From an uncultured Hyphomicrobiales bacterium (lineage in GTDB: Bacteria > Pseudomonadota > Alphaproteobacteria > Rhizobiales > Xanthobacteraceae), in NCBI GenBank assembly GCA_903839845.1, contig CAIMEA010000187.1, positions 1 to 47,975 on the forward strand: DNA of 47,975 bases. Direction: 5' to 3'. Below are positions 12,886 to 30,446 of the stretch, piece after piece. Under the pieces are notes generated by a model, which was not told the DNA's origin, did not search any database, and saw only the letters and a program-made list of their open reading frames with translations. The position numbers and the translations under genes were made by a program. Position 1 is the stretch's first letter. Each line of letters opens with the position of its first letter.

Positions 12886-12913
12886 TTGACAAACTACGCC
12901 CCCCGGCTATTCT
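12886..12913 (+). promoter_or_regulatory. Sigma-70-type promoter of the aroE-like/fdxA/hydratase operon
   Basis: A consensus -35 box TTGACA at 12886-12891 is followed after 16 nt by TATTCT (12908-12913). Two bases later the TetR-type palindrome begins, so a bound repressor would sit over the transcription start. The same layout occurs at 21591-21618 on the minus strand. Confidence 0.6.
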
Positions 12914-12915
12914 AC

Positions 12916-12929
12916 TAACTAGATAGTTA
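12916..12929. promoter_or_regulatory. Operator O1 of the putative TetR regulon
   Basis: TAACTAGATAGTTA is a palindrome with 6-bp arms around GA, strikingly AT-rich for this genome. Near copies lie at 21575-21588, 26499-26512 and 30433-30446, each in a promoter region of the surrounding catabolic genes. It lies just downstream of the -10 box and 10 nt before ATG 12940, a repressor position. Confidence 0.72.
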
Positions 12930-12939
12930 AGGGCGGGAC

Positions 12940-13740
12940 ATGATCACTGGCACCACGCGGCTTTACGCCATCATCGGCGACCCTATCGCGCACGTCCGGA
13001 CGCCGATGGTGTTCAATGACTATTTCGCGGAACGAAACATCGACGCGATCTGCGTGCCGATTCACATCGGACGTGACGACCTGCCGCGCGGCTGGGCTGG
13101 GCTGCGATCCATGGTCAATCTCGATGGCTTCATCGTCACCGCGCCGCACAAGGCGGAATCGGCGCAACTCAGCGACCGCCTTGAGGGCGACGGCATGCAC
13201 ACCAAAGTCGTCAACACCGTACGCCGGGAGCCGGACGGCAGCTTCAGCAGTACGCTATTGGACGGACGCGGCTTCGTGCGCGGCCTGATCAATCAAGGCC
13301 AAGAGGTCAAGGGAAAGCGCTTCTACGTCGCGGGCGCGGGTGGCGCCGGCACGGCTCTGGCTTACGCCCTTGCCGGAAGCGGCGTGGCGGCGTTGACCAT
13401 CCATAACCGGACGCGCGCCAAGGCGGAAAGACTGGTCGCCGATGTCGGCAAGGCATTCCCCGGTTGCGATGTGAAGGTCGGGACCGCCAACGCCGCCGGC
13501 TATGACGTTGCCGTCAACGCAACCTCGCTCGGTCTCAAACCGGACGATGGCCATTCCTTCGAACTTGCCAGCGTCGATCCGACCGCCTTGGTCGCCGAGG
13601 TGGTGATGAAGCCGGACATGACGCCTTTGCTGATCGCCGCCGAAAAGCGCGGGCACAAGATCCATTTCGGCATCCACATGCTCAACAGCCAGTTGGAACT
13701 GATGATGCAGTTCCTCGGAGTCAGCAAGCCAAAGCCTTAG
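12940..13740 (+). CDS. Shikimate dehydrogenase-like NAD(P) oxidoreductase
   Basis: The 266-residue protein has the AroE/YdiB fold. The N-terminal substrate domain has the catalytic Lys in VTAPHK and the catalytic Asp in [11 protein letters not shown]; the Rossmann domain has [19 protein letters not shown], and the following [10 protein letters not shown] suggests NADP preference. In AroE the motif HSxSP supplies two serines that hold the shikimate carboxylate; here it reads HVRTP, so the ligand is probably not shikimate. A quinate-like or other 3-oxo acid dehydrogenase is plausible. It is first in an operon with a 7Fe ferredoxin (31 nt gap) and an MhpD-like hydratase, behind a promoter with operator O1. 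Catabolic rather than biosynthetic context also argues against a housekeeping AroE. Confidence 0.85.
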
Positions 13741-13771
13741 ATTAACCGCCCATTGTCGCGAGAGCCAAAAG

Positions 13772-14110
13772 ATGACTTACGTCGTCACCGAAAATTGCAT
13801 CAAGTGCAAATATATGGACTGCGTTGAAGTCTGTCCGGTGGACTGCTTCTATGAGGGCGAGAACATGCTCGTCATCCATCCCGACGAATGCATCGACTGC
13901 GGCGTCTGCGTGCCGGAATGCGGGGCCAATGCGATCCAGGCCGACACCGAGCCGGGGCTGGACAAATGGCTGGCGCTCAACGCCGAATATGCCCCCAAGT
14001 GGCCGAATATCACCGAGTATCGCGAGCCGGCGGCTGACTCAAAAGAATTCGACGGCAAGCCCGACAAGTTCGAGAAATACTTCAGCCCCGAGCCCGGCAC
14101 CGGGTCGTAA
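13772..14110 (+). CDS. fdxA: 7Fe ferredoxin (FdxA type)
   Basis: This is a 112-residue cytoplasmic electron carrier. The N-terminal half carries two cysteine clusters, [20 protein letters not shown] and [18 protein letters not shown], arranged as in Azotobacter-type ferredoxins that hold one [3Fe-4S] and one [4Fe-4S] cluster. The C-terminal 50 residues are the acidic helical extension seen in FdxA ([17 protein letters not shown]). It lies between the AroE-like and MhpD-like genes in the O1 operon, with 3 nt to the next start. The ferredoxin-NADP reductase gene at 21643, also beside an operator copy, is the natural redox partner. The terminal electron acceptor is not evident in the window. Confidence 0.93.
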
Positions 14111-14113
14111 CCC

Positions 14114-14881
14114 GTGTCGCTCGCCGCGCTCACGGCCGAACTTTCCCGGGCGCGCCGTGAAGCGCGCGTGCTCGATCCGCAAACGTGGCGCGTCACCGTT
14201 GCCAATGTCGCGGACGCCTACGCCGCGCAGACGCTGCTCGCCGGCCAGCCCGGTCATGAGGCGCGCGGCTGGAAGGTCACGGCGCTCAGCAGCGAGCAGC
14301 AAAAACTTTACGGCGCCGACAGGCCGGTGGCGGGCGCCCTGCTCGCGCCCTTTTTTCATACCGCGCCGGTGACACTGGCGATCGGGAACTATCTTGTCCC
14401 TCTGCTGGAGTGCGAAGTGTCGTTTCTGCTGGGCCAGGATCTGCCGCCGCGCGAAAAGTCCTATACGCGCGAAGACATCGAAGCGGCGATCGAGGCCGTG
14501 GTCCCGGCGATGGAAGTCGCCGACTGCCGCTGGCCCGACGATGTCTCCGGCGTGATGAAGCTGGCGGATTCGATGGGCAACGGCGCCTTCATCGTTGGCG
14601 AACCGGTGAAGGACTGGCGCAAGCTCGATCTCACCAGCACAGACGTGACCTTGTCGCACGACGGCAAGATCGTGGAGCGCGGATCGAGTGCGCGCATTCT
14701 CGGCAATCCACTCAAGGCGGTGATCGCGCTCGCCAATGCTCAACCTTTGCCGGCTGGTGGATTGAAACGCGGCCAGATCGTCACCACCGGCACCTGCACG
14801 ATTCCGATCCCGCCAAAGCCGGGCCTTTACGTCGGCGACTTTGGCGCGCTGGGGACGCTGCGACTGGAAATGACGGCGTAA
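14114..14881 (+). CDS. 2-keto-4-pentenoate hydratase / fumarylacetoacetate hydrolase-fold protein
   Basis: This 255-residue protein belongs to the MhpD/FAH fold. The metal-binding ExE pair is in PLLECEVSFLLGQDLP, followed by EAAIEAVVPAMEVADCRW, the usual third acidic ligand strand, and it ends with GLKRGQIVTTGTCTIPIPPKPG and LYVGDFGALG, typical of 2-hydroxypenta-2,4-dienoate hydratase and 4-oxalocrotonate decarboxylase. It would hydrate or decarboxylate a 2-oxo-enoate. The start is GTG 14114, 3 nt after the fdxA stop. It is the last gene of the O1 operon and convergent with the enoyl-CoA hydratase gene (4 nt between stops). It might also process ring-cleavage products from the dioxygenase at 34601, but that is inference. 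Confidence 0.85.
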   Translation: MSLAALTAELSRARREARVLDPQTWRVTVANVADAYAAQTLLAGQPGHEARGWKVTALSSEQQKLYGADRPVAGALLAPFFHTAPVTLAIGNYLVPLLECEVSFLLGQDLPPREKSYTREDIEAAIEAVVPAMEVADCRWPDDVSGVMKLADSMGNGAFIVGEPVKDWRKLDLTSTDVTLSHDGKIVERGSSARILGNPLKAVIALANAQPLPAGGLKRGQIVTTGTCTIPIPPKPGLYVGDFGALGTLRLEMTA

Positions 14882-14885
14882 CGCT

Positions 14886-15647
14886 TTAAAACTTCGCGTC
14901 GCGCTTTTCCTGAAACGCCTTGATGCCTTCCATGCGGCCCTTGTCCGACATGCAGATGACATGCAACTCGTTCTCGTAGCGCAAGCCGGCTTCGAGCGGT
15001 GTCGATAGCGCCGCACGCACCGCGGCTTTGACTGCCTGCGTCGCCGTCGGGCTGAACGCGGCGATCTTCTTCGCCATCTCCATCACCCGCGGCATCACCG
15101 CGGCATCGTCGACGACTTCCTCGACCAGGCCGAGGCGCAACGCCGTCTCGGCATCGACCGGATCGCCGGTCAGCAACAGCCGCATCGTCTGGCCGACGCC
15201 GATGAGCCGGGGCAGCATCTGCGAGGCGCCGCCGCCGCCGAGCCAGCCGCGCGTCACTTCGGGGCCGCCAATCCTGGCGCTACGGCCGCAGATCCGGATA
15301 TCGGCGGCGATCGCGATCTCCATGCCGCCACCGAGCACCCAGCCTTTCAGCGCGGCGATCACCGGCTTCTTGATGTCGCGCACCAGCGCGGCATATTCGA
15401 TGCGGTCGCGGAACGCCATCACATCGGAGAGGTCAGCCAAAGTATTGAGATCGCTGCCGGCCGAGAACGCGCGCTCGCCGCCGCCCGCGATCGTGACGAC
15501 GCGAATGTTTCGGTCGTCGTCGACCGCGCGGCAGACACGCTGCAATTCGCGCGACATCTCCGGCGTGATCGCGTTCATCTTGTCCGGGCGGTCAAGCACG
15601 ATCTGCCCGATGCCGTCCTCGATGGTGAGTGTGACGCGGCCGGTCAT
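14886..15647 (-). CDS. Enoyl-CoA hydratase/isomerase family protein
   Basis: The 253-residue crotonase-fold protein has the oxyanion-hole segments RAFSAGSDLNTLAD and GWVLGGGMEIAIAADIRI, and the glutamate-containing segment GGPEVTRGWLGGGGASQMLPR where crotonases place a catalytic acid. It likely hydrates or isomerises an enoyl-CoA; CoA activation could come from the CoA-transferase encoded in the same operon. I chose ATG 15647 (MTGRVTLTIEDG), which overlaps the upstream stop by 4 nt; the longer frame to 15764 encodes Arg-rich non-family sequence. It is last in the minus-strand run from 21548. The specific reaction is not assigned. Confidence 0.88.
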   Translation of the reverse strand: MTGRVTLTIEDGIGQIVLDRPDKMNAITPEMSRELQRVCRAVDDDRNIRVVTIAGGGERAFSAGSDLNTLADLSDVMAFRDRIEYAALVRDIKKPVIAALKGWVLGGGMEIAIAADIRICGRSARIGGPEVTRGWLGGGGASQMLPRLIGVGQTMRLLLTGDPVDAETALRLGLVEEVVDDAAVMPRVMEMAKKIAAFSPTATQAVKAAVRAALSTPLEAGLRYENELHVICMSDKGRMEGIKAFQEKRDAKF

Positions 15648-16558
15648 GCCGACACCTTGGGCGCGCCGCCGCCGGATCGCCGTTCCACTTCCTGAAGCAT
15701 GCCGGCGACATCGACGCCGTTGCCGAACTGGCCGACCATGTCGCCGAACATGCCGACCAGACAATCCAGCAACGTAAAGTGCATGCCGTTGCCGGTAGCC
15801 AGCGCCTGCGCCGTGCGCAAATCCTTGAGCTGGTATTCCGCCGGCCCGCCCGGCACGAAATTGCGTTCGACCATGCGCTCACCGTGGATGTTGAGAATCT
15901 TCGAGTCGGCGAAGCCGCCCATCAGCGCCTTGCGCACCGCGGACGGATCGGCGCCGCCTTTGGCCGCGAAATGCAGCGCTTCGGCAACGGCGACCATGGT
16001 GGCGCCGACGATAATCTGATTGGCCAGCTTGGTCATTTGTCCGGTGCCAACCGGCCCGATGTGGGTGACGCGGCCCATCGCGGCGAATACATCGGCAAGA
16101 CCGGCGACGGTTTTGGCGTCACCGCCAGCCATGATCGCCAGCGTACCGTCGCGTGCGCCCGGCTCGCCGCCGGAAACCGGCGCGTCGATATAGCCAACGC
16201 CGCGCTGGGAAACTCGCTTTGCCTGCATCTGGCAGGTCTCAACCGGAATAGAACTCATCACCACCAGCACTGAGCCCGCCGCCATCGCCTCGGACGGAGC
16301 CTTGCCGGTGTTATCGGGAGAGAACAGCACATCGTCGACCACCGGACCGTTGCTCAGCATGACGATGCAGACATCGGCGGCGGCGCAGGCCGCCGAAGGG
16401 CTTGCCGCGATCGCCACACCGAACGGAGACAGTTTATCGGCCTTGTCGGCGCTGCGATTCCACACCGTGACGGCGAAGCCGGCCTGCGCCAGACGCCGCG
16501 CCATGTGGGCGCCCATAATTCCGGTGCCGAGAAGCGCGATGCGGCGTCGTGTCGGCAT
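15644..16558 (-). CDS. 3-hydroxyisobutyrate dehydrogenase-family NAD(P) oxidoreductase
   Basis: This 304-residue beta-hydroxyacid dehydrogenase begins with the Rossmann motif IALLGTGIMGAHMARRLAQAG; the Asn-Arg of VWNRS suggests NADP use. The substrate-binding signature DAPVSGGEPGARDGTLAIM and the catalytic Lys in GQMTKLANQIIVG are intact. It would oxidise a 3-hydroxy acid or reduce the corresponding semialdehyde. It lies 3 nt after the flavin oxidoreductase gene stop and overlaps the enoyl-CoA hydratase start by 4 nt, so the three are translationally coupled. Related enzymes include tartronate semialdehyde reductase and succinic semialdehyde reductase; the substrate here is open. Confidence 0.9.
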   Translation of the reverse strand: MPTRRRIALLGTGIMGAHMARRLAQAGFAVTVWNRSADKADKLSPFGVAIAASPSAACAAADVCIVMLSNGPVVDDVLFSPDNTGKAPSEAMAAGSVLVVMSSIPVETCQMQAKRVSQRGVGYIDAPVSGGEPGARDGTLAIMAGGDAKTVAGLADVFAAMGRVTHIGPVGTGQMTKLANQIIVGATMVAVAEALHFAAKGGADPSAVRKALMGGFADSKILNIHGERMVERNFVPGGPAEYQLKDLRTAQALATGNGMHFTLLDCLVGMFGDMVGQFGNGVDVAGMLQEVERRSGGGAPKVSA

Positions 16559-16561
16559 CGG

Positions 16562-18028
16562 TCACCCCACCTGGGCTTTTTTCAAAACCGCGAGCTGCTT
16601 GAATTCAGGCGACTTCTTGTAGTGCGCATCCAGCGGATAGCAGCCGGAGACGATGCCGTTGCGCGGCGCGGTCGTACAATCGCTGAACGTGCGGCAGTTG
16701 CGCTTCTTGTTGACCGGCCGGCCTTGCAGAATATCCAGCGGCAGTTCCGGATAGGCCAGCACCATGCGGCCGAGCCCGACGAGATCGACCCAGCCCATGC
16801 GAACCACGGCCTGCGCGACGTTGGGGAAGAACTCCTGCAGGTAGGTGTAACCCGAACCCATCAGGCAAAAATCGGGGAACGCTGCTTTGAGGTCGCGCAC
16901 CACGGACAGCTGGCGCATCACGCCGATGAACGGGTCCTCCGGCGGATAATACCCGTCGGACGGCGGATAGAGCGCCGGGCGGATCAAATGCGGATTGTAA
17001 TAGGGGCTCGCCGCCGTCACGTTGACGAAGCGCACGCCCATTTTGCGCATGATCTCGAACAGCGCCTTGGTCTCGGTCAGATCGTATTCCAGCGGATTCT
17101 GCGCGTTGCCGCCGAAAGCGTAAGGGTACGGTGTGCCGTGACTTTCCGGAACGCCCGGGCCCAGCGCGCCGGGAACCGAACGATCCGGATCCGGCTTGAA
17201 CGGCACCGAGTCGAACGCCGACAGCCGAACGCCAATCTTCAGCCGCGGCGCTTCGACGCGAATGCCCTCGACGATCTCACGCATGAAGCGCGTGCGGTTT
17301 TCCAGGCTGCCGCCATAGGCGCCGGGCCGGTCGACCGCGCTGAGAAATTCGTGGCCAAGATAGCCGTGACAATGTTTGACGTCGACGAAATCGTAGCCGC
17401 AGGCCTCGGCGCGCTTGGCGGCGATAATATAGTCGTCGATCAGCGTCTTGATTTCGTCGTCGGTGATCACCGGCCGATCCGCCGGATAGCCGAATTTGCG
17501 GTCGAGCAGCGGATGGTTATAGGCGATGATCGATTCGAACTTGGTGTTGTCGTTCGGCTTGCAGAAGCGGCCGGAATGCGTGAGCTGCAATCCGATGACG
17601 ACGTCGTCCTCGCCGCCGGTCGCTTCCTTGTGCGCGGCGATGGTGATGTCGCGCAAACCGGCGATGTCGCTCTGGCTTTCCGCGGTCATGGTGAGCTGCT
17701 TCGGATTGGCGCGGCCATCAAAGCGCACCGCGCAGGCTTCGCCGCCCCAGATCAATTTGGCGCCGCTCAAGCCGAAACGCTGCCAACGGCGCTTGGTGTT
17801 TTCGGACGGCTTGCCGTCGCGCTGACAGTCCCAGCCTTCCATCGGATGGATCGCCAGCCGGTGGCCGATTTTCATGCCGTCGATTTCGAGCGGCTGCGCC
17901 AAAGGCGATGTCGGACCGTGCGCGACAATATCGTCGCATGGCATGTCGATGCCGAGCGTCTGCATGTAGTTTCGGAATCCGGTGACGCCGTCGAGTGAAC
18001 CGGCCTTGGGATAGTCGCCGAATTTCAT
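16562..18028 (-). CDS. NADH:flavin oxidoreductase / Old Yellow Enzyme-like ene reductase
   Basis: From ATG 18028 this gives 488 residues; GGAGG 6-10 nt upstream supports the start, and 90 further in-frame residues to 18298 overlap the TetR gene and look non-coding. The protein is an FMN-binding TIM barrel of the OYE/2,4-dienoyl-CoA reductase type: KIGHRLAIHPMEGWD near the N-terminus, the substrate loop VKHCHGYLGHEFLSAV, then RPGAYGGSLENRTRF, and a phosphate-binding end near LVGLGRMVLAYPELPLD. After the barrel there is a Cys-bearing tail (NCRTFSDC then GCYPLD) that resembles a remnant or variant of the Fe-S region of 2,4-dienoyl-CoA reductase, but the FAD/NAD domains of that enzyme are absent. 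It probably reduces an activated C=C bond. It lies 43 nt after the TetR gene in the same direction. Confidence 0.87.
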   Translation of the reverse strand: MKFGDYPKAGSLDGVTGFRNYMQTLGIDMPCDDIVAHGPTSPLAQPLEIDGMKIGHRLAIHPMEGWDCQRDGKPSENTKRRWQRFGLSGAKLIWGGEACAVRFDGRANPKQLTMTAESQSDIAGLRDITIAAHKEATGGEDDVVIGLQLTHSGRFCKPNDNTKFESIIAYNHPLLDRKFGYPADRPVITDDEIKTLIDDYIIAAKRAEACGYDFVDVKHCHGYLGHEFLSAVDRPGAYGGSLENRTRFMREIVEGIRVEAPRLKIGVRLSAFDSVPFKPDPDRSVPGALGPGVPESHGTPYPYAFGGNAQNPLEYDLTETKALFEIMRKMGVRFVNVTAASPYYNPHLIRPALYPPSDGYYPPEDPFIGVMRQLSVVRDLKAAFPDFCLMGSGYTYLQEFFPNVAQAVVRMGWVDLVGLGRMVLAYPELPLDILQGRPVNKKRNCRTFSDCTTAPRNGIVSGCYPLDAHYKKSPEFKQLAVLKKAQVG

Positions 18029-18071
18029 GTATCCTCCGTCTTTTTTTGATCGTTGGCGCTGCGATGAAACG

Positions 18072-18758
18072 TCAGCGCGCCGCGATGTACGACATGATGA
18101 CGTCGACGCAATGCGCGCGCCGCAGCTTCTGTTCGGCCGGGCTCGACAAGGCGCGGCCAAAGGCCGCCGACAATGTCGCCGAATTCGAGAAGTAGAAGTA
18201 GCTGAGCGCCGACATCGAGATATAAAGATGCACTGGATCAATGCCGGGCCGGATGTCGCCTTTGGCGACGCCAGCATCGAGCAAGGCGCTGATGACATCC
18301 ACCAGCGACATGTTCATGTCGCGCAGCCGCCGCGACCGCTTGAGATGCACGGCGCCGAGCATGTTCTCGCCGGCGAGCAGCGCGATGATCTGCTGATGCT
18401 GCTGGCAATAGTCGAACTTGAATTCGACCCAGGTCTTGATCGCTTCGCGCGGTGCGAGGTCGGTCAGATTGAGCTTGCGCTCGGCCTCTCGCATCGAGCC
18501 GTAGGCCCGTTCGAGCACCGCGAGGTAAAGCTCTTCCTTGGAGCCGAAGTAGTAATACAACATCCGCTTGTTGGCGGCGGCCTGTTCAGCGATGACATCG
18601 ACGCGCGCGCCGGCGAGCCCTTTGGTGGAGAATTCGACTTCGGCCGCGGCCAGCAGGGCCTGCTTGGTGCGTTCCGCGTCGCGCACGGGCTCAAGCGGCG
18701 CTTTGGCCTTCGCCGAGAGCGCCGACTTCTTCGCTTTCGAAGTGACCGCGACAGCCAT
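18072..18758 (-). CDS. TetR/AcrR family transcriptional regulator
   Basis: This 228-residue repressor-type protein has a lysine- and alanine-rich leader of about 25 residues, then the TetR DNA-binding domain: RTKQALLAAAEVEFSTKGLAGARVDVIAEQAAANKRMLYYYFGSKEELY, with the YYFGSKEEL end typical of the family. The C-terminal ligand domain matches the group with YIAAR-type tails often annotated TetR_C and seen in pyrimidine and aromatic catabolism regulators. Its start shares one base with the CoA-transferase stop, so it is inside the operon that begins at operator O2 and should be autoregulated. It is the only TetR in the window and the most likely ligand of the four palindromes O1-O4 (inference). 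Confidence 0.92.
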   Translation of the reverse strand: MAVAVTSKAKKSALSAKAKAPLEPVRDAERTKQALLAAAEVEFSTKGLAGARVDVIAEQAAANKRMLYYYFGSKEELYLAVLERAYGSMREAERKLNLTDLAPREAIKTWVEFKFDYCQQHQQIIALLAGENMLGAVHLKRSRRLRDMNMSLVDVISALLDAGVAKGDIRPGIDPVHLYISMSALSYFYFSNSATLSAAFGRALSSPAEQKLRRAHCVDVIMSYIAAR

Positions 18759-20377
18759 TACGGCACCGCCTTTGTCAGGAACCGGTCCAATCGCGCCGAG
18801 CGAATCGGGCGCGGCTTGCCGGCAATAATAGCGGCAAGTCCCATGGCTTCGGGGCGGAAAATGCGTTCATCCATCTCTTTCAACGCCGGCGAGACATCCG
18901 GCTTGAACTGCATCTGCGCGAAGATATCGCGTTCCAGCTCGATGCCCGGCGCGATCTCGATCAATTCGAGACGCTCGGCTTCATTGCGGCGGAATACCGC
19001 CCGCTCGGTGATATAGAACGCGCGCTGGCCATTCTGCGCAGCCAGCGCGCCCGAATAGGTCACCTGCTGTACCTGGCGGACGAATTTCTTTTCGGCGCCC
19101 TCGCGCGCGATGTGGGTGCGGCCGTTCGGCCAGGACATGTCGAGGCCACCGGCGGTAAACGTGCCGCTGAATAGAATCGTCTTGGCGTTCTGGCTGATGT
19201 TGATGAAGCCGCCCGGGCCGACGATCTTGTCCCCGAAACGGCTGACATTCACATTGCAGGCCGCATCGACTTCGGCAAACGACAGGAACGCCAAATCGAG
19301 GCCGCCGCCGTCGTAGAAATCGAACTGGTACGGCTGGTCGACCATTGCCTGGTAATTGCGCCCGGCGCCGGGTTCGTTGCCGGTCGCCGGCACGCCGCCA
19401 ATCAGTCCCTGCTCGTTGGTCAACACGACATCGTCGATGGCGTTTTCCTCAGCCGCGAGCGATGCGATGCCGGTCGAGATACCGGAACCAAGGTTACAAA
19501 TGGCGCCGCTGTAAAGCTCCAGGCTGGCGCGCCGCGCCACGATCTTGCGCACCGAGAACGGCAAGGCCGCGATATGGCCGAGCGGCACCTTGATCTCGCC
19601 GGCATAGGCCGGATCGTGCGCGGTGAAAAAGGTTTGCGTCTGCGCCGGATCGACCACGATCAGATCGACCAGCATCCCTGGAATCTTCACCTGCTTCGGC
19701 GGCAACGTGCCGCGCAACGCCATTCGCTTGACCTGCGCGATGACGATGCCGCCGGCGCGGCGGGCCGCCTGCGCCATCGAGATCATCTCGCCGAAGACCG
19801 CCTCATGCTCCATCGTGATGTTGCCATCCTCGTCGGCGGTGGTCCCGCGGATCAGCGCAACATCGACGTGGAAGGATTTGAAGAACAGATATTCCTTATT
19901 GCCGACCGTGGTCAGTTCGACCAGATCCTCGGTCGCCAGCTTGCTTTGCCGGCCGCCGCCATGGCGCGGATCGACGAAAGTGTGCAGGCCGACATGCGTC
20001 GTCAGGCCGGGACGGCCGGCCGCCATTTCCCGCGTCAATTGCGAGAGACAGCCTTGCGGCAGGGTGTAGGCTTCGATCGTGTTGGCCGCCGCCATGCGTT
20101 CGACCGGCGGCGAGTCCACCAGCGTGCCGCAGACCACACGCTTTAAAAGTCCCTCATGGGCCAAATGGCCGATGCCGCGATTGGCGCGGTCGCCGAGACC
20201 GACCGGATGCACTGTCGTCAGATTGCGCGGCGCACCTTCGGCCAGAAAGCGTTTGGCAATCGCGCCAATGAGAGTGTCGGGAACCGAGTGCCCGGCGCCG
20301 GAGCCGCCGATCAGCAAAGTGTCGCCGGTAGCGACCAGTTGCGCTGCTTCGTCCGCTGTAACGACCCGAGGCGCCAT
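18758..20377 (-). CDS. Acyl-CoA:acetate/propionate-type family I CoA-transferase (fused alpha-beta)
   Basis: This 539-residue protein contains both halves of a family I CoA-transferase, like propionate CoA-transferase and YdiF. The N-terminal half has GDTLLIGGSGAGHSVPDTLI and HPVGLGDRANRGIGHLAH; the C-terminal half has LGSGISTGIAS and the catalytic-glutamate motif TNEQGLIGGVP, followed by GGGLDLAFLSFAEVD and GPGGFINISQNA. It would activate a carboxylic acid by moving CoA from another acyl-CoA, via a glutamyl-CoA intermediate. I chose ATG 20377 (MAPRVVTADEAAQL) as in the family; the frame remains open to 20725 inside the DUF993 gene. It is the second gene of the O2 operon, 4 nt after the DUF993 stop. 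Confidence 0.9.
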   Translation of the reverse strand: MAPRVVTADEAAQLVATGDTLLIGGSGAGHSVPDTLIGAIAKRFLAEGAPRNLTTVHPVGLGDRANRGIGHLAHEGLLKRVVCGTLVDSPPVERMAAANTIEAYTLPQGCLSQLTREMAAGRPGLTTHVGLHTFVDPRHGGGRQSKLATEDLVELTTVGNKEYLFFKSFHVDVALIRGTTADEDGNITMEHEAVFGEMISMAQAARRAGGIVIAQVKRMALRGTLPPKQVKIPGMLVDLIVVDPAQTQTFFTAHDPAYAGEIKVPLGHIAALPFSVRKIVARRASLELYSGAICNLGSGISTGIASLAAEENAIDDVVLTNEQGLIGGVPATGNEPGAGRNYQAMVDQPYQFDFYDGGGLDLAFLSFAEVDAACNVNVSRFGDKIVGPGGFINISQNAKTILFSGTFTAGGLDMSWPNGRTHIAREGAEKKFVRQVQQVTYSGALAAQNGQRAFYITERAVFRRNEAERLELIEIAPGIELERDIFAQMQFKPDVSPALKEMDERIFRPEAMGLAAIIAGKPRPIRSARLDRFLTKAVP

Positions 20378-20381
20378 GTTG

Positions 20382-23210: not shown

Positions 23211-23246
23211 TGCCTGCCAGTCCGGGGTCATATTACGCGGGAGAAA

Positions 23247-23273: not shown

Positions 23274-23286
23274 AAAGTGACAGAGC

Positions 23287-24315
23287 CTATTTGCTGCCGG
23301 TCGTATACGGCGGCTGGGCCAGATATTCGTTGGTGTAGTACTTGGACAGATCGGCCTGCGCGGTCAGACCGGCATACTTTTCCAGCAGGTCCTGGCTCTC
23401 CTGCCAGTCTTCCTTGGCCGACCAGAACAGCGGCTTGCCCTGGGTGTGCTTGGTGTTGGTGATCGTCAGCGTGCCGTTGATCTCCAGCAGTGCGATCTCG
23501 GTGTTGAACGAAGGCGCGTGCTTGATGAAGATCGCGGCGGCTTCGTCAACGTTCTTGCGGGTGTATTCCCAGCCGCGTTGCGACGCCGCCAGGAAGCGCT
23601 TGAGCTGATCCGCGTTTTTGGGATCCTTGACCCAGTCGTTGTTGACGATGATGGCGCTGCTCAGGGTCGTAATACCGGCCATGTCATAGAGCCGCGTCCA
23701 GCCCATCTTCACGCCGCTCTTGAGCTGCATGCGCGGACCCTGGTCCATGAAATAGCCGAGCAGAGAATCGGCCTGACCGCCGAGCACCGCCTGCTCCTTC
23801 GCCGCCGGATTGGCGACCGTGATCAACTTCACGTCGCTGACCTTCATGTCGAGCTTGCCCATGAAGGCGGTGAAGATCGCGAGACTGGCGTCGCCGGCGG
23901 TGATGGCAATACGGCTGTCCTTGATGTCGGCGATCTTGTTCGGCCGCGGATTGTCGGCGCGATAGATGAACGACATCGGGCTCTGTTGCAGCGTGACGCC
24001 GACCGCCTTGATCGGCATGCCGGCGTTGATGCCGCGCATCATGGTCGCGGCATCGACGTAGGACACCGGGTTGGTGGCGTTGGCGGTCAATTGCGCGACA
24101 GTCGTCGAGCCGCTGCCTTCGACGATATCGACGTCGAGACCGGCTTCCTTGTAGAAGCCCTTGTCGAGCGCGACAAAGAACGGCGCGTGCTCGCCATAGA
24201 GCGTCCAGTTCAGACGGAACGAAAACTTATCGAGTGTCTGGGCGCCGGCCGGCATCGCGAACGCCGACATCGCGGCGGCCGCCATGAGCGATAATAGAAT
24301 CCCACTGCGTTTCAT
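23287..24315 (-). CDS. ABC transporter substrate-binding protein, NMT1/THI5-like (SsuA/TauA type)
   Basis: This 342-residue periplasmic protein has a Sec signal peptide (MKRSGILLSLMAAAAMSAFAMPAGAQ in two parts: basic start, hydrophobic core, AGA cleavage site near residue 25). The mature part begins with FSFRLNWTLYGEHAPFFVALDKG, the standard NMT1/THI5 opening, and includes DVDIVEGSGSTTVAQL and RIAITAGDASLAIF. It captures substrate for the permease at 24389 and ATPase at 22434. The RLNW segment is common in binders of pyrimidine and other heterocyclic compounds, so a heteroaromatic ligand is as likely as a sulfonate. Gene order on the minus strand is permease, binding protein, hairpin, ATPase. 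Confidence 0.92.
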   Translation of the reverse strand: MKRSGILLSLMAAAAMSAFAMPAGAQTLDKFSFRLNWTLYGEHAPFFVALDKGFYKEAGLDVDIVEGSGSTTVAQLTANATNPVSYVDAATMMRGINAGMPIKAVGVTLQQSPMSFIYRADNPRPNKIADIKDSRIAITAGDASLAIFTAFMGKLDMKVSDVKLITVANPAAKEQAVLGGQADSLLGYFMDQGPRMQLKSGVKMGWTRLYDMAGITTLSSAIIVNNDWVKDPKNADQLKRFLAASQRGWEYTRKNVDEAAAIFIKHAPSFNTEIALLEINGTLTITNTKHTQGKPLFWSAKEDWQESQDLLEKYAGLTAQADLSKYYTNEYLAQPPYTTGSK

Positions 24316-24388
24316 TGATATTCTCCTCCCTGAGATATGACTTCGTCTTTTAGCGAATCACTTCTTAAGCTTGGTAGAAAAGGCAAGG

Positions 24389-25216
24389 CTACATAGTGCC
24401 CAACTCCACCCGGTGGGTAACGTGCCAGGGGATCAGGTAACTCTCCAACAGTTCGACGAGATAGTAAAACACCAGGCCGATGATGGTCAGCGCCACGATG
24501 GTGGCGAACATCAACGCCGTTTCCATGTTTGAATTTGTTACCAGCAGCAGATAGCCAAGACCCTTGTCGGCGCCGACAAATTCGCCGACCACGGTGCCGG
24601 CGATGGCCAAAGTCGCGGCGACCTTCAATCCACTGAACAGATACGGCAGGCTGGTCGGCAGCCGGAACTGCGCGAACACCTGCATGCGCGACGCGCCCAT
24701 CGATCGCGCGAGATCGGTCATTTCCGACGACATCGAACGCAAGCCGACAGCGGCGTCGATGACGATGGGGAAAAACGAGATCAGGAAGGCTACCAGGACT
24801 TTCGGCGTCGTGCCGACGCCGAACCAGACCAGGAACAGCGGCGCGATGGCGACCTTTGGAATGATCTGAAAGAACAACATCGTCGGCATCACGAGTTGAT
24901 TGAATCGCCGCGATGACGTGATCGCAATCGCCAGCGGGATGGCGATGCCGACCGCCAGCGCATATCCCGCCAGCATTTCGTACACCGTGACCCACCCATT
25001 GCTGATCAGCAACGGAAGCTGGTTGATGAACGCGTGGCCGATGGCCGAGGGCGACGGCAACAGATAAGCCGGCACCCCCCAGGCGACGACAAAAATCTGC
25101 CACACCAGCAGGAAGCCGACGACGCCTGCCAGCGGCGTCAGTTTTCTGAGAGCGCTAATTGCAAAAGCGCGCGCCGCGCCGGTATCGGGTTTCACGGAAT
25201 TACTCACCAGAGTCAT
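24389..25216 (-). CDS. ABC transporter permease, SsuC/TauC type
   Basis: This 275-residue inner-membrane protein has about six hydrophobic segments and the BPD_transp_1 coupling loop SSEMTDLARSMGASRMQVFAQFRLPTSLPYLFSGLKV, the EAA-type motif of this group. It works as a homodimer with the ATPase at 22434. It follows the enolase-superfamily gene (61-nt gap) in the same direction, so the transporter is probably expressed with that enzyme from the operator O3 region. The 73-nt gap to the binding-protein gene shows no clear signal. The start ATG 25216 precedes a polar cytoplasmic leader before the first helix. Confidence 0.92.
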   Translation of the reverse strand: MTLVSNSVKPDTGAARAFAISALRKLTPLAGVVGFLLVWQIFVVAWGVPAYLLPSPSAIGHAFINQLPLLISNGWVTVYEMLAGYALAVGIAIPLAIAITSSRRFNQLVMPTMLFFQIIPKVAIAPLFLVWFGVGTTPKVLVAFLISFFPIVIDAAVGLRSMSSEMTDLARSMGASRMQVFAQFRLPTSLPYLFSGLKVAATLAIAGTVVGEFVGADKGLGYLLLVTNSNMETALMFATIVALTIIGLVFYYLVELLESYLIPWHVTHRVELGTM

Positions 25217-25277
25217 CGTTCCCTTCCTAAGCCCACATCGTATAGTCGTGTGGTTTTCTTGCAGCGTAGCAGAGCCT

Positions 25278-26468
25278 TCAAGCCGGTAAAGCTTCTCGCG
25301 CCTCCGCGACAGTTGTCATGGAAGCCCGTGCCGCCTTTGGCAATTCGATTCCCAAACCCGGCCCGGTCGGAACCTGCATCACGTCGCCACGCGGGCGGAA
25401 CGCAGGGTCCACCGTGCCGCGATCGGCGAGATATTGCGGGCCATTGACGGCCGCGGGTAGGTCAAGACCGGCGAAGGCGAAGAAATGCGCGGTCGCCGCC
25501 ATCGACAGTTCCGGATCGGTGAGCCCTGAGGCAAATAGCAGCAGACTGTTTTCTTCGAGCAATCGCGCAATGCCGGCGGCATTCCACAGACCGCCGCAGC
25601 GAGCGACCTTCATGGCAATGCCATCGAACATGTCCAACGCAATGAACTCGGCCACTTCGACCGGCGAAACGATGCCTTCATCCATCAGGATCGGGAGCGC
25701 GCCTTGCCGCTTTAACGTTTGATAGGCGCGGATGCGGTTGGGCGGGAGCGGAGATTCGAGACCTTTCAGGCCCAGATCGGCGAGCCTAGGCGCGATCTTC
25801 AGCGCGGTGTCGAGATCGTAAGTCGTGTTGGCGTCGCACCAATGGAACCCATTGGGGGCAAAGGCCGTCACTGTGCGCACCAGTTCAAGGTCGTAGGCTG
25901 GTGTCTGCGGATAGCCCACTTTGATGTTGAAGCTGTCGTAACCGAGCGACCGCCCCGCCTGAAGTTGCTTCTCGGCACCAGCCAAGGTCGGCGACTGCAC
26001 CGTCCAGCTCAGCTTGATCTGCTTTTTGCGCGCACCGCCGAGCAAGTCGCTGACTGATTTTCCAGTCTGTTTGCCCCAGAGATCGTAACAGGCCAGATCG
26101 ATGCCGGCCTTGCAGAGCGGCTGGCCAACCGAAAACGACGGCCGGATCGCGCGCTCCATGCGGGCGTGGATGTCGGACAGATCAGTCGGATCGGCACCGA
26201 GAATGGCCGGCGCCAGATAGAGCCGCAGCGTGGTCTCCACGCTCTCGATCGTTTCGTAGGTCCACGTCTCGACCGGCACCGATTGGCCGAAGCCCTCGAC
26301 GCCGTTCTCATCGGTCAGCCGCACGAGCATCGACGGCCGTGCGCCCGACTTGAAGAATTTGAATTCTCCAAGCAACGGATAATCGAGCCGTTTGATATCG
26401 ACGCGGGTAATCCGAGCCATCTCGGCCGCCATCCTCTCGTTCCCAGGCCCCTCGATGATCGCGGTCAT
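25278..26468 (-). CDS. Mandelate racemase/muconate lactonizing enzyme family protein
   Basis: This enolase-superfamily protein (396 residues from ATG 26468) has the N-terminal capping domain and a (beta/alpha)7 barrel. FNIKVGY holds one Lys of the K-x-K pair on strand 2 (the first is Asn); metal ligands are seen in WCDANTTYD, GLESPLPPN and ILMDEGI; the opposing Lys is in GIAMKVARCGGLWNA, as in muconate cycloisomerase and dipeptide epimerase subgroups. It would abstract an alpha proton from a carboxylate and catalyse cycloisomerisation, epimerisation or syn-dehydration. Later starts at 26432 or 26420 are possible. It diverges from a second enolase-superfamily gene (26727) across operator O3 and leads the ABC transporter operon, so its substrate is probably the imported compound or a near derivative. 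Confidence 0.86.
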   Translation of the reverse strand: MTAIIEGPGNERMAAEMARITRVDIKRLDYPLLGEFKFFKSGARPSMLVRLTDENGVEGFGQSVPVETWTYETIESVETTLRLYLAPAILGADPTDLSDIHARMERAIRPSFSVGQPLCKAGIDLACYDLWGKQTGKSVSDLLGGARKKQIKLSWTVQSPTLAGAEKQLQAGRSLGYDSFNIKVGYPQTPAYDLELVRTVTAFAPNGFHWCDANTTYDLDTALKIAPRLADLGLKGLESPLPPNRIRAYQTLKRQGALPILMDEGIVSPVEVAEFIALDMFDGIAMKVARCGGLWNAAGIARLLEENSLLLFASGLTDPELSMAATAHFFAFAGLDLPAAVNGPQYLADRGTVDPAFRPRGDVMQVPTGPGLGIELPKAARASMTTVAEAREALPA

Positions 26469-26498
26469 TCGACGCCGCCGGAGGGTTGGCAATCAGTT

Positions 26499-26512
26499 TA
26501 ACTATCTGGTTA
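26499..26512. promoter_or_regulatory. Operator O3 of the putative TetR regulon
   Basis: TAACTATCTGGTTA differs from the O1 sequence (other strand) at one base. It lies 30 nt upstream of the mandelate-racemase-family start at 26468 and 214 nt upstream of the divergent gene at 26727. The -10/operator geometry seen at O1 and O2 is not obvious here on either strand. Confidence 0.68.
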
Positions 26513-26533
26513 GATCAGCGCGAGGAAAATTAT

Positions 26534-26609
26534 GAGGCCGTCTCCCGATTTTCAAAAAGAAAGCACCTTCAGCTTCTATTGCCTACACTAGCAGTCAAGG
26601 GACGGCCTC
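26534..26609. repeat. Spaced inverted repeat upstream of the enolase-superfamily gene
   Basis: GAGGCCGTC (26534-26542) and GACGGCCTC (26601-26609) are exact inverted 9-mers 58 nt apart; the match continues with CCC against GGG after a 1-nt and 0-nt offset. It lies in the 258-nt divergent gap between the two enolase-superfamily genes, which otherwise shows only O3. It could be a pair of operator half-sites or a leader RNA stem. Confidence 0.35.
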
Positions 26610-26726
26610 TGGGGCGATTAAAATGCCACATAATATCAATGACTTGAGGTCTTATCGACGTGCTGGGTGCCGCCTGCCAGGCTGGCTGGCTGGCCCGGCG
26701 CCACTGCGACATTTGGCATCACGCGC

Positions 26727-28139
26727 ATGACCGGCCCGCATTTCTTTGTCCGGGAGGTGCGGCTCTACGAGCGTGACGTCCGCCTTCGGATGCCTTTTCG
26801 CTTTGGCGTCGTGACATTGACCGAGGCGCCACAGTGCTTTGTGCGCGTCCGCATCGAATTTCCCGATGGCCGTTCGCAATGGGGCGCGGCCGCCGAACTG
26901 CTGGCGCCGAAATGGTTCGACAAGAATCTGGCGCTGACGAATGAGGACAACTTCGCTCAGTTGCGCCTGGCGCTCAGGCTTGCCGCCGGCAGTTATACGG
27001 ATGGCAAGGCCCGCACCGCCTTCGGCCATTTCGCCGCCCATTACAGCGAGCAGATCGAAGCCGGCGTCTGGCGGCATCTCAATTCGCTGGTCGCCAATTT
27101 CGGACCGGCCCAGATCGATCGCGCTATTCTCGATGCGCTGTTCCTGGCGCTCGATTGTTCGTTCTACAACGGCATGCGCGCCAATCTTGCCGGCATCGAT
27201 CCGTTGCTCCTCGCCGGCCATCTGGCCGATCTGGCGGGTTTCGCTATGCCGCATTTTCTCGCGCGACTTAAGCCCGCCAATAGCATCGCCGCGCGCCATA
27301 CCGTCGGCCTTGTCGACGTCATTGGCGGCCACCCGGGACAGGTCGACGATGGACTGCCGGAATCGCTGGAAGAGGTCGTCGCCGCCTACGGCCACCGCTA
27401 CTTCAAACTCAAGGTCGGCGGCGATCCCGCGGCCGATCTGGCGCGGCTGATCGACATCGCCAGCATCATCGATCGCATTGCCGAGCCCTATTTCGTCTCC
27501 CTCGACGGCAACGAACAATACAACGACATCGCCGCGCTGCTCGACTTGTGGCGGCGCATGCAGGACACGCCGCAACTCAAGCGGCTGACGGCGAGCATCC
27601 TGTTCATCGAGCAGCCGATCACCCGTGCCCATGCGCTCGACGGCGATATATCGGCGCTGGCGCGGATCAAACCTGTCATCATCGACGAATCCGACGACAG
27701 TCTCGACGTCTTCCCGCGCGCCCGCGCGCTCGGCTATGCCGGCGTTTCAAGCAAATGCTGCAAAGGTCTGTATAAATCCATTCTGAATGCCGCGCGCTGC
27801 GCGCACTGGAACGCCGAAGCGGCTGCGCCGAATTACTTCATGACCGGCGAGGACCTGACCACGCAAGCCGGTCTCGCCGTCCAGCAGGATCTGGCGCTGG
27901 TCAATCTGCTCGGCCTCACCCATGTCGAGCGCAACGGTCACCATTACGTCAACGGCATGGCGGACCTGCCCGCGGCCGAGCAGTCAGCCTTCCTCGCAGC
28001 GCATCCCGATCTCTACGCGCAAAGCCATGGCACGGTGCGTTTGAAAATCCGCGCCGGGCAACTGGACATCGGATCGCTGGCGGCGCCGGGCTTTGCCTCC
28101 GGCGCCTACCCCGATTGGCAAACGCTCAGGCCGCTTTGA
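26727..28139 (+). CDS. Enolase-superfamily (mandelate racemase-like) protein, unusually long
   Basis: From ATG 26727 this gives 470 residues, longer than the usual 360-400 of the superfamily. Barrel motifs are clear in order: RYFKLKVGGDPAADL (K-x-K on strand 2), YFVSLDGNEQY (Asp ligand), ILFIEQPITR (Glu ligand), PVIIDESDDSLD (Asp/Glu ligand) and AGVSSKCCKGLYKSI (Lys opposite). The extra length is in the middle (about residues 90-200) and in a C-terminal tail after VNGMADLPAAEQ. I do not recognise a characterised subgroup; proton abstraction next to a carboxylate is the family chemistry. The 20 residues upstream to 26667 are not family-like. It diverges from the 25278 gene across O3, and its 3' end overlaps the MetE-like gene at 28126 by 14 nt, tail to tail. 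Confidence 0.78.
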   Translation: MTGPHFFVREVRLYERDVRLRMPFRFGVVTLTEAPQCFVRVRIEFPDGRSQWGAAAELLAPKWFDKNLALTNEDNFAQLRLALRLAAGSYTDGKARTAFGHFAAHYSEQIEAGVWRHLNSLVANFGPAQIDRAILDALFLALDCSFYNGMRANLAGIDPLLLAGHLADLAGFAMPHFLARLKPANSIAARHTVGLVDVIGGHPGQVDDGLPESLEEVVAAYGHRYFKLKVGGDPAADLARLIDIASIIDRIAEPYFVSLDGNEQYNDIAALLDLWRRMQDTPQLKRLTASILFIEQPITRAHALDGDISALARIKPVIIDESDDSLDVFPRARALGYAGVSSKCCKGLYKSILNAARCAHWNAEAAAPNYFMTGEDLTTQAGLAVQQDLALVNLLGLTHVERNGHHYVNGMADLPAAEQSAFLAAHPDLYAQSHGTVRLKIRAGQLDIGSLAAPGFASGAYPDWQTLRPL

Positions 28140-29169
28140 CTTTGGCGTTGCGGCCTTCGTAGAGGTCGCGGCCGAGCACCAAAGCCTTGATCTTGCCATC
28201 GGCGATGCCGCGCTTGAGCATCCAGAACCCGCAATCGGGGTGAATGTATTTCACCCGGCCGACACCGAGCACCTTGTCGGCATGTTCGATGGCGCGGGCG
28301 ATGGAATCCGCCGATTCAACGACGGTCTGCTTGATATCGACGACGCCGAGACCGAAGCCGATATCCGGACGCAATTCCTTGAACACGTCGAGTTCGGTCG
28401 GCGGGCGATGCGCATTCTCCATGACGATGTGATCCACATGGAGCTTGTTGAGATAACCGATCAGTTGGCCCCAACCACCCTTCTGGATGGTCTGCCCGCC
28501 GTAATTGCCGAAGCAAAGATGCACCGCCGGAACGGTCGGGATGGCGTCGAGTACGACGTTCATGGCGTCCGCCGCCCACTCCCATTCCTCCGGACTGCCA
28601 GGCAGATTGGCTTCGTCGACCTGAATGACTTCCGCGTTGATATGCTTGACCTGTTCGGCCAGCACGCCGGCGATCGCCATCGTCAGCGCGGCTTTGTCCT
28701 TGTAGTGGGTGTCGAGCAGCATCTTGGCCAGCATATGCGGACCGGTCAGCGTGAATTTCAGCGGCTTGGTCGCCAGCTTTCGCGCCCGTTCGCAGGCCGC
28801 CGGCAGATCGAGCGAACCCGGCCCGACCGCGCTTTCGACCACGCCCGGCGGTCGCGAGCGGAACTTGTGATCCGCGGACTGCTTGAACGCCAGCCATTCG
28901 GCCAGGCCGATCTCATTGCGGATGCCTGACATCGGCCGCACAAAATACTCGATCATGCCATTGGTTTCGGGATGATTGACGTCGAAACGATAGAGTTCGC
29001 CGTCGCACACCAGGTCGATACCCGCCTGTTCCTGGGTATCAATGACAACGCGGGTGGCGTCGATCACCGCCTGGTCCGACGGCAAGGCCACCAGCCAGTC
29101 CGGCACCGGATAGGAGCCGACCGTGGTGGTGAGAATGCGTGCATCGGAACTGCTTTTGAAAATTGCCAT
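28126..29169 (-). CDS. MetE C-terminal-like zinc methyl/alkyl-thiol transferase family protein (paralogue 1)
   Basis: This 347-residue protein is a TIM-barrel of the cobalamin-independent methionine synthase (MetE C-terminal/MeTr) family without the MetE N-terminal domain. It starts ARILTTTVGSYPVPDW, the usual opening. The zinc set is complete: His and Cys in AVHLCFGNYGG, Glu in HIVMENAHRP, Cys in IHPDCGFWML. The family includes methionine synthase cores and epoxyalkane:coenzyme M transferase, all activating a thiol on zinc. Classical MetE folate and homocysteine determinants cannot be confirmed. It follows a second paralogue (29213) by 43 nt in the same direction, presumably in one transcript from the O4 region. 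I infer group transfer to or from a thiol in the catabolic pathway rather than methionine synthesis. Confidence 0.82.
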   Translation of the reverse strand: MAIFKSSSDARILTTTVGSYPVPDWLVALPSDQAVIDATRVVIDTQEQAGIDLVCDGELYRFDVNHPETNGMIEYFVRPMSGIRNEIGLAEWLAFKQSADHKFRSRPPGVVESAVGPGSLDLPAACERARKLATKPLKFTLTGPHMLAKMLLDTHYKDKAALTMAIAGVLAEQVKHINAEVIQVDEANLPGSPEEWEWAADAMNVVLDAIPTVPAVHLCFGNYGGQTIQKGGWGQLIGYLNKLHVDHIVMENAHRPPTELDVFKELRPDIGFGLGVVDIKQTVVESADSIARAIEHADKVLGVGRVKYIHPDCGFWMLKRGIADGKIKALVLGRDLYEGRNAKVKAA

Positions 29170-29212
29170 TGTCGTGATTTCCCTGGGATGATTGTCTTGA
29201 TGTGTCGAGCGA

Positions 29213-30385
29213 TCAGGCGGTCACACGCTGCGGCCGTGCGGCCTGCGATGCGATCCGCGTGCCTTTCACTAGCGCCTCGAACTTGGCCCAGACGATGGTC
29301 TCATGGATTTCATCGTTGCCGGCGAAGCTGGCAAAGCCGCAATCGGTACCGGCGATGACGCGCTCGACGCCAAAGGCATCGACCCAACGGCCAAGCCGCT
29401 GCGCCACCGACTCGGGATGCTCGACCATCACGTTGGATTGCGTGATCATGCCGGGGATCATGATGACGTCGTCGGGCAGCTTGGCGTCGCGCCAAGATGT
29501 CCATTCATGTTCGTGCCGCGGATTGGCGGCCTCGAACGAGAAGGCGCCCGCGTTCAGGCGCCCCAGGATATCGGTGATGTGTTTGACCTCGATGTCGTGG
29601 ACGCGCGGGCCGAAATTGATGCCGTAGCAGGTGTGAAAGCGCACCCGGTCCCTCGGAATCCCGCGCAAGGCGTGATTGATGGCCTCGACCCGCAGCGCAA
29701 TCCACTTGCGGCATTCTTCCATGCTCTTGTCGGGGTGGCAGACGTAATAGGTGACGAGATGCGGATCATCGACCTGAAGCACGAAGCCGGCCTCGACGAT
29801 GGCGCGGTATTCCTCGCCGATCGCCTCAGCGAGCGCGACGAGGTAGTCCTCCTCGGACTTGTAATAGACGTTGCGGTTCCAGTCCTCGATACTCGACACC
29901 GACGTCGACGGCACAAAAGCATCCACAATATCGACGCCCTTTAGCGCGGCCTTGAGATTGTCGAGATCGACTTTAAGGATTTCCGCGCCGCGATATTTGA
30001 CCGGCCCGTTGCACAGATAGTGGACGTGTTTGGTATGCACGTTGGCGAGTTGCGGCGCGTAGAATTCGGGAAACGCCTTGACTTCGCGCGAGCCGAACCA
30101 TGGGCTTCGGTTGCGGTCGGCGCTGTCGATTTCAAAACCGGCGAGACGCTCGTTGATATAGGTGATGAAGCTCGGCTTGCTCATCTCGCCGTCGTCGACG
30201 ATGTCGATGCCAAGTTCCGCCTGTTTGCGTACGATATCGGACACCGCCTGACGCAGGCGGGCGCCATAGGCGGTCTCGTCGACTTTTTGGCCGCCGCGGC
30301 GCGCGACGTTCATGGCGTGAAGGTCCGCCGGACGCGGCAGGCTGCCGACATGGGTGGTCAGGATTCGATCGGCGCTGTGCTTCAT
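29213..30385 (-). CDS. MetE C-terminal-like zinc methyl/alkyl-thiol transferase family protein (paralogue 2)
   Basis: This 390-residue protein is from the same family as its neighbour, with ILTTHVGSLPRPADL near the start and a VDDGEMSKPSFITYINERL segment. Zinc ligands are visible in VRFHTCYGINFG (HxC), FSFEAANPRHEHEW (Glu) and VIAGTDCGFASF (Cys). ATG 30385 (MKHSADRILTTHVG) is chosen; the 31 residues upstream to 30478 have no family match and would cross operator O4. A ribosome site GAAGGAAA precedes it. It is first of two MetE-like genes in a row. Two full-length, zinc-competent paralogues side by side suggest a two-component methyl or alkyl relay or two related substrates (inference). Confidence 0.84.
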   Translation of the reverse strand: MKHSADRILTTHVGSLPRPADLHAMNVARRGGQKVDETAYGARLRQAVSDIVRKQAELGIDIVDDGEMSKPSFITYINERLAGFEIDSADRNRSPWFGSREVKAFPEFYAPQLANVHTKHVHYLCNGPVKYRGAEILKVDLDNLKAALKGVDIVDAFVPSTSVSSIEDWNRNVYYKSEEDYLVALAEAIGEEYRAIVEAGFVLQVDDPHLVTYYVCHPDKSMEECRKWIALRVEAINHALRGIPRDRVRFHTCYGINFGPRVHDIEVKHITDILGRLNAGAFSFEAANPRHEHEWTSWRDAKLPDDVIMIPGMITQSNVMVEHPESVAQRLGRWVDAFGVERVIAGTDCGFASFAGNDEIHETIVWAKFEALVKGTRIASQAARPQRVTA

Positions 30386-30432
30386 GGCGTTTCCTTCATT
30401 TTGTTTTTGCGCGCCTGAAATCCTACGCCAGG

Positions 30433-30446
30433 TAACCATCCGGTTA
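30433..30446. promoter_or_regulatory. Operator O4 of the putative TetR regulon (divergent copy)
   Basis: TAACCATCCGGTTA, inside the wider GGTAACCATCCGGTTACA, matches O3 at 12 of 14 positions and O1 at 11 of 14. It is 48 nt upstream of the MetE-like start at 30385. The changes keep TAAC and GTTA ends. It is the weakest of the four but is placed as expected for the same regulon. Confidence 0.5.

Follow-up and report, generated by a model that had tools for sequence, protein, structure and literature searches.

What is the function of four nearly identical palindromes that lie in the gaps of a catabolic gene cluster of an uncultured Hyphomicrobiales bacterium, and which protein reads them? The question is raised by a stretch of 47,975 nucleotides (contig CAIMEA010000187.1 of assembly GCA_903839845.1; below, the window is this whole stretch), in which a first-pass annotation had noticed the palindromes around an embedded gene of a TetR-family regulator and had claimed a new regulon, governed through them by this TetR, which would also control its own synthesis. 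Our analysis arrives at a closely related answer: with a probability of roughly 85%, the four palindromes are operators of the TetR encoded at 18072-18758, a predicted and autoregulated repressor whose four operators would serve a set of 17 genes. As predictions, the operators, the autoregulation and the 17-gene reach are well supported by sequence comparison across genomes. The regulon as found in the window thus stands, but the operator is not private to it, being common to relatives in other alpha- and betaproteobacteria.

The pattern shared by the palindromes, TAAYYATCYRGTTA, has four exact matches in the entire assembly to which the window belongs (4,036,721 bases in 240 contigs, 99.76% complete), and all of them are the window sites (12916-12929 on the minus strand, 21575-21588, 26499-26512 and 30433-30446), whereas the reversed control pattern has none; this rarity is partly circular, because the pattern was built from these same four sequences. 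The palindromes that had been reported are therefore confirmed as exact matches, and the exact copies in the genome do cluster here, a point on which the first-pass annotation had left the decision to a genome-wide search. Operator 1 (TAACTATCTAGTTA on the minus strand) directly follows a promoter-like element and stands 10 bp before the ATG of an aroE-like gene; operator 2 (TAATTATCTAGTTA, plus strand) is found in the divergent gap between a DUF993 gene and a ferredoxin-NADP reductase-like (fpr-like) gene, at 26 and 54 bp from their inferred starts; operator 3 (TAACTATCTGGTTA, plus strand) occupies the divergent gap between two enolase-superfamily genes, at 66 and 214 bp from the inferred starts of enolase 1 and enolase 2; and operator 4 (TAACCATCCGGTTA, plus strand) precedes a pair of MetE-like genes by 47 bp, counted from the inferred start of MetE-like 2. 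The assignment of the sites to these catabolic genes holds, and with the start codons chosen all four are intergenic; site 4 would fall within the MetE-like 2 reading frame if a far TTG were its start. Two one-mismatch copies elsewhere in the genome (C79:30700 and C211:8005) were considered as further sites and rejected, as both are inside long open reading frames. Across a sample of 396 other genomes of the order, TAAYYATCYRGTTA has 46 exact places in 44 genomes, at most two per genome, and none in the 18 same-family genomes among them. The window's own genome contains the degenerate dyad YAAYYRNNYRRTTR at 24 places and its control at 5, and only the four window sites have TAA/TTA ends.

Does the motif belong to this TetR? 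The TetR was used as a query, and the best 80 of 89 relatives were taken with flanks of up to 10 kb; identity is 81-83% for two of them and, over the best segment, 40-60% for the remaining 78, and their titles include Burkholderiales and other betaproteobacteria, Microvirga and Bradyrhizobium. When every exact 6-bp inverted repeat with a spacing of 0-8 bp was counted within 300 bp on either side of the 80 tetR genes, TAACCA-N2-TGGTTA was the joint top dyad, being present in 8 of the 80 near-tetR regions and in 2 of 1774 distant segments. The dyad that ties with it, CGGCGC-N0, also has 8 near occurrences but is frequent in distant segments as well (12), and the shifted or C-variant forms TCAACC-N4, CAACCA-N2 and TTAACC-N4 likewise rank high. 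From the seed TAACCA-N2-TGGTTA, a symmetric matrix was refined on the 400-bp flanks of the tetR relatives, with a training set of 43 loci that contained neither the window nor the loci L005, L006 and L060 of the relatives compared below. At a score of at least 13.5, it recovers 41 of the 80 near-tetR regions and 63 of 1315 distant segments, a comparison in which the near count is biased upward by training on near-tetR sites and in which some of the distant matches may be real cluster promoters. At a score of at least 16, it finds 107 sites in 67 of the 80 loci (1.33 Mb in total), whereas 45 column-permuted palindromic matrices give a mean of 1.6 sites and a maximum of 12; in an earlier series of 200 permutations, from which near-copies of the motif had not been left out, the mean was 0.8 near loci and the maximum 35. 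The dyad search, the ranking of words in the window and the held-out plasmids described below are free of the training bias. In the window, the three top-ranking words of the matrix are 26499 (22.5), 30433 (22.3) and 12916 (21.1), and 21575 (14.1) comes fifth. What is conserved, as judged from these sequences, is a motif of approximately TAACYR-N2-YRGTTA. The 6-2-6 dyad of the motif first proposed is thereby retained, but relatives do not share its central ATC, which made that motif too specific.

Close relatives retain the sites as well, in the corresponding gaps between genes. Three stretches were compared, from genomes G777 (L006), G778 (L005) and G779 (L060), whose TetR proteins are 81%, 83% and, over the available part of the protein, about 60% identical to that of the window. 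G778 keeps all four sites: the aroE-like gene is preceded by TAACTAGATAGTTA and DUF993 by TAATTATCTAGTTA, the gap of the two enolase-superfamily genes contains TAACTATCTGGTTA, and upstream of MetE-like 2 stands TAACCGTTCGGTTA, a copy with a changed centre but intact arms. In G777, sites 1-3 are unchanged. Operators 1 and 3 are identical in all three genomes, operator 2 is identical in G778 and G777, and G779 has a weaker site (14.1) before the CoA-transferase gene. In the aroE gap, the alignment of the four genomes shows the TTGACA element and the palindrome to be invariant, while the remainder has largely diverged.

Three annotated plasmid stretches with TetR proteins of 47-48% identity were held out, from S. 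meliloti pSymB, Pseudoroseomonas and Chelatococcus. There are two matches in 21 kb of pSymB, one before tetR and one between tetR and the next gene, and two in 21 kb of Pseudoroseomonas, both between tetR and the next gene, so that all four matches in these two stretches flank tetR. A further link between protein and motif comes from the 41 TetR proteins that have a near site: five of them carry Q-L in place of R65-M66, all from Bradyrhizobium and with half-sites beginning CAACCA, whereas the other 36 keep R-M and have sites that begin with T. In this Bradyrhizobium clade (loci L010, L015, L019, L027 and L042), CAACCA-N2-TGGTTG replaces TAACCA-N2-TGGTTA beside tetR, which would be a natural specificity change. 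Judging by the fold of the family and by an alignment with RutR, R65-M66 would be located in the recognition helix.

The protein itself has an N-terminal helix-turn-helix domain (TetR_N, PF00440, 45 bits against a cut-off of 24) and a C-terminal ligand and dimer domain (TetR_C_29, PF17938, 125.2 bits against 26.2). Its best NCBIfam match is RutR, far under the equivalog cut-offs (TIGR03613, 82.2 against 368; NF011584, 77.1 against 230), and its best match among solved structures is RutR as well (4x1e, E 1.2e-18). No rut pyrimidine-degradation genes adjoin it, the 16 other genes of the set being assigned otherwise. Its own genome has no second close TetR, the next best having 31% identity (E 4.5e-8). 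Comparison of sequences predicts a palindromic operator at the promoters of both its own gene and its targets.

Several observations weigh against this assignment. When up to two mismatches to TAAYYATCYRGTTA are allowed, 46 places in the genome stand against 43 for the control and the excess is gone, so that the signal resides in the near-exact copies. In 10 of the genomes behind the 80 loci, the loose pattern TAAYYRNNYRRTTA likewise shows no genome-wide excess, with totals of 39 places and, for its control, 43; what does speak for the assignment is that 23 of the 39, by our own count, are on contigs or loci that contain the cluster. Site 2, before the operon of tetR itself, scores lowest of the four, under an intragenic word at 28454 (15.3). 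A site of at least 13.5 is missing from the 400 bp around tetR in 39 of the 80 relatives; 28 of these 39 have a site of at least 16 elsewhere in the locus, and 13 of the 80 are without any site of at least 16 in their locus. The copy of site 4 in G777 has decayed (13.1). Further TetR relatives are encoded in G778 (54%) and G779 (39%, and a partial one of 58%), which makes the owner of the sites less certain in those two genomes. The Chelatococcus plasmid stretch was scanned and has no motif, and of 29 other DUF993 loci with flanks of about 1.5 kb, only 5 have a site of at least 13, so that the operator does not accompany DUF993 in general. The covariation of the helix is that of one clade, perhaps one event. 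Finally, promoter-like sites are no commoner in the region than in shuffled sequence (5 against a mean of 4.7), and the positions of site 4 over TTGTAA-N18-TAGGAT and of site 3 over TTGGCA-N18-TTAGAT were both read by eye; TTAGAT and TTGTAA are also present in aligned relatives.

How could the four operators work? A TetR dimer would read two half-sites of approximately TAACYR that are 2 bp apart. Because two of the operators, 2 and 3, each stand between divergent genes, the four could suffice for six transcription units that comprise all 17 genes, tetR included: aroE-like/fdxA/mhpD-like; DUF993/CoA-transferase/tetR/OYE/HIBADH/crotonase; fpr-like; enolase 1/permease/binding protein/ATPase; enolase 2; and the MetE-like pair. 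Site 1 is directly adjacent to a promoter-like element, and each of the other sites seems to overlap such an element, so that TetR on the DNA would stand in the way of RNA polymerase. The element at site 1 reads as a sigma-70-like promoter of the aroE-like operon, TTGACA-N16-TATTCT (12886..12913, plus strand), with 10 of 12 matches; at site 2, a weaker match to a promoter extends into the palindrome. With tetR within a predicted operon behind site 2, the regulator would control its own synthesis. An NMT1-type ABC importer would admit the substrate, either this compound or one formed in its breakdown would act as the ligand of TetR, and the release of TetR would derepress importer and enzymes together. 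The simplest mechanism would therefore be steric repression with autoregulation, lifted by the substrate or an intermediate, and the set is probably switched on together; that one ligand switches on the whole set, as had been suggested earlier, follows if the TetR is a ligand-released repressor.

What alternatives exist for such a common repressor switch? TetR could in principle bind but act as an activator, or only some of the sites could be used, in which case the set would not be one switch. Partial use is favored by the unequal site scores, which range from 14.1 to 22.5, and by the decay of the site 4 ortholog in G777, but the location of the sites at or over promoter-like elements fits repression, and two relatives have identical sites in three of the four gene gaps, so that we consider this alternative unlikely. 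Considerably less probable is that another regulator binds the palindromes, for example the Crp/Fnr-like protein encoded at 11970-12767 or the GntR/FCD protein encoded at 35609-36313. Both genes are in the window and outside the set, and the Crp/Fnr-like gene, which is absent from the first-pass annotation, adjoins site 1, ending 148 bp before it. Against this stands that the Crp/Fnr-like query has no match listed (E <= 1e-8) in the 80 TetR-relative loci with their flanks of up to 10 kb, that neither this query nor the GntR query, which was run only there, has a match listed in the G777, G778 and G779 stretches, where the sites are kept, and that the motif adjoins tetR genes in distant bacteria. 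The consensus sites of Crp and Fnr do not resemble the motif. With no Crp/Fnr-like or GntR match listed in the stretches of relatives that were searched, such other owners were judged unlikely and set aside. A merely accidental clustering of the sites, under a loose pattern that had been fitted to these four sequences, can practically be dismissed, for although the pattern was defined post hoc and has no genome excess at up to two mismatches (46 against 43), a matrix built without the window recovers the four sites, and they are kept in other genomes while their flanks diverge.

The 17 genes that the TetR would control extend from 12,940 to 30,385. Behind operator 1, the plus strand encodes a shikimate dehydrogenase-like (AroE-like) protein (12940..13740, profile matches below equivalog cut-offs), ferredoxin FdxA (13772..14110; NF045490, 165.4 bits, cut-off 135) and a 2-keto-4-pentenoate hydratase-like (MhpD-like) protein (14114..14881, profile matches below cut-offs). 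Toward these, the predicted minus-strand operon behind operator 2 encodes, from its distal end, an enoyl-CoA hydratase family protein (crotonase; 14886..15647, profile matches, start inferred), a dehydrogenase similar to 3-hydroxyisobutyrate and tartronate-semialdehyde reductases (HIBADH; 15644..16558, below equivalog cut-offs), an old yellow enzyme-family (OYE) flavin oxidoreductase (16562..18028, profile match, start inferred), the proposed repressor (18072..18758; nearest curated model and solved structure RutR), a FadX-like CoA-transferase (18758..20377, profile match, start inferred) and the DUF993 protein (20382..21548, 612.8 bits), relatives of which are annotated as dihydrodipicolinate synthase family. 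The ferredoxin-NADP(+) reductase-like gene follows on the plus strand (21643..22416, profile match, start inferred). The predicted minus-strand transport operon consists of the ABC transporter ATPase (22434..23231, nearest models of the taurine/nitrate type), an NMT1/THI5-like solute-binding protein (23287..24315, profile match), the permease (24389..25216, profile match) and enolase 1, a muconate cycloisomerase-like enolase-superfamily enzyme (25278..26432, start inferred). The second, divergent enolase-superfamily gene (26727..28139, plus strand; PF13378, 34.8 bits, start inferred) is followed by the minus-strand genes of MetE C-terminal-like proteins 1 (28126..29169, profile match) and 2 (29213..30385, start inferred). 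The word at 28454 was tried as an extra operator and rejected, as it is inside MetE-like 1, a gene that has no word of at least 13 in either G777 or G778. Beyond the regulon, at 31768-36313, the window encodes a TRAP transporter, a glyoxalase-family protein and the GntR/FCD regulator. The best matrix word beyond 30446 scores only 5.7, leaving an SDR gene and the TRAP/GntR cluster without a site, and the stretch 31768-36313 is probably a separate unit.

In the close relatives, sites were also seen at places other than the four gaps. In G779 (C222), two operators with starts 145 bp apart (L143:8857 and 9002) precede an operon for a KDPG aldolase, a PfkB kinase, an SDR, a tripartite tricarboxylate transporter, an isomerase-like protein and a weak GH88 match below cut-off; on the same contig, at L143:4071-5198, a gene of the dihydroorotate dehydrogenase family is transcribed divergently from a start about 90 bp away from the aroE-gap operator, and it may belong to the regulon there as well. 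In G777 (C26, L145:263), a second DUF993 gene, 65% identical to that of the window, lies behind the strong operator TAACCGTATGGTTA and a Gfo/Idh/MocA gene. The genome search found no second close TetR in G777, where a contig end nearby might hide a gene, and one TetR may therefore serve two clusters there, barring a gene lost at that end. G778 (C640, L141:5079) has an extra strong site, CAACCATCTGGTTA (20.3), within the open reading frame of a 626-amino-acid amidohydrolase, about 150 bp from its 5' end, followed by epimerase, SDR and flavoprotein genes; this locus is a possible further member if the true start lies further in.

Which compound the pathway degrades is hinted at by the gene content of relatives: the Pfam matches to KDPG aldolase and PfkB kinase, the sub-cut-off GH88 and the tripartite transporter in G779, together with Gfo/Idh/MocA and isomerase genes elsewhere, are hints of sugar or uronate chemistry. 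This leads to a wider and tentative picture, to which we would give slightly less than even odds. In it, a RutR-like TetR subfamily with the operator TAACYR-N2-YRGTTA would govern a family of undescribed catabolic pathways across alpha- and betaproteobacteria, with DUF993 and enolase-superfamily enzymes at their core. For use on a cyclic compound that is sugar-derived or glycosidic, the lineage of the window would have recruited CoA-transferase, OYE, HIBADH, crotonase, AroE-like, ferredoxin and MetE-like modules, each placed under the TetR by gaining a copy of this operator. In the open literature searched, no mention of DUF993 was found, nor, among the matches listed, a description of this operator or cluster, for which the motif-word search was too unspecific to exclude one. 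The analysis turns a raw palindrome into a testable 17-gene regulon with a named regulator, and it connects the MetE-like pair and an uncharacterised DUF993 protein with a single, probably inducible pathway. With the operator as a handle, this pathway could be delimited in other bacteria and its substrate sought by reporter screening.

Among known systems, RutR is the closest. Its operator, TTGACCA-N2-TGGTCAA, has the same 6-2-6 layout, with the half-site TGACCA in place of the TAACYR predicted for the TetR of the window. The likeness consists in RutR being both the best curated model and the best solved structure for this TetR, and in a palindromic operator with control of the own gene and of a catabolic operon; the difference is that the TetR scores far below the equivalog cut-off and that its neighbours are not rut genes. 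RutR, the pyrimidine-utilisation regulator of E. coli, uses a palindromic operator of about 16 bp to control a catabolic operon and its own gene (PMC10891134). A comparative study describes taxon-specific substitutions in RutR motifs (PMC5343134), and a related variant may therefore stand in the RegPrecise database.

The plasmid clusters, which are characterised by product name only, are related systems of a different composition. pSymB and Chelatococcus have Gfo/Idh/MocA, DUF993, enolase/mandelate racemase and sugar phosphate isomerase genes beside TetR, and Pseudoroseomonas has these without the racemase. They resemble the window in the TetR identity of 47-48%, in the common DUF993 and, in two of the three, in the same dyad beside tetR. 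Before its ABC operon, Chelatococcus plasmid pCO-6 carries GTAACTACCTGATGAGTTAC (L151:4098-4340), an inverted repeat of wider spacing, and the helix of its TetR reads NRRMIYHYF. The window cluster has in addition AroE-like, FdxA, Fpr, CoA-transferase, OYE, HIBADH, crotonase and the MetE-like pair, but no assigned Gfo/Idh/MocA or isomerase gene, and unlike in the plasmid clusters its tetR sits inside a predicted operon. The transporters differ as well, with a sugar ABC transporter in pSymB and a tripartite one in Pseudoroseomonas. Many of the 80 TetR-relative loci share DUF993, a second enolase-like gene, the ABC importer or MetE-like 1 with the window. A ligand-responsive TetR that controls a catabolic cluster through a common palindrome is a well-known kind of system; what appears to be new here is the predicted operator, found undescribed, together with an uncharacterised pathway, and by the comparison of loci this operator is common to a RutR-like TetR subfamily and not peculiar to one locus.

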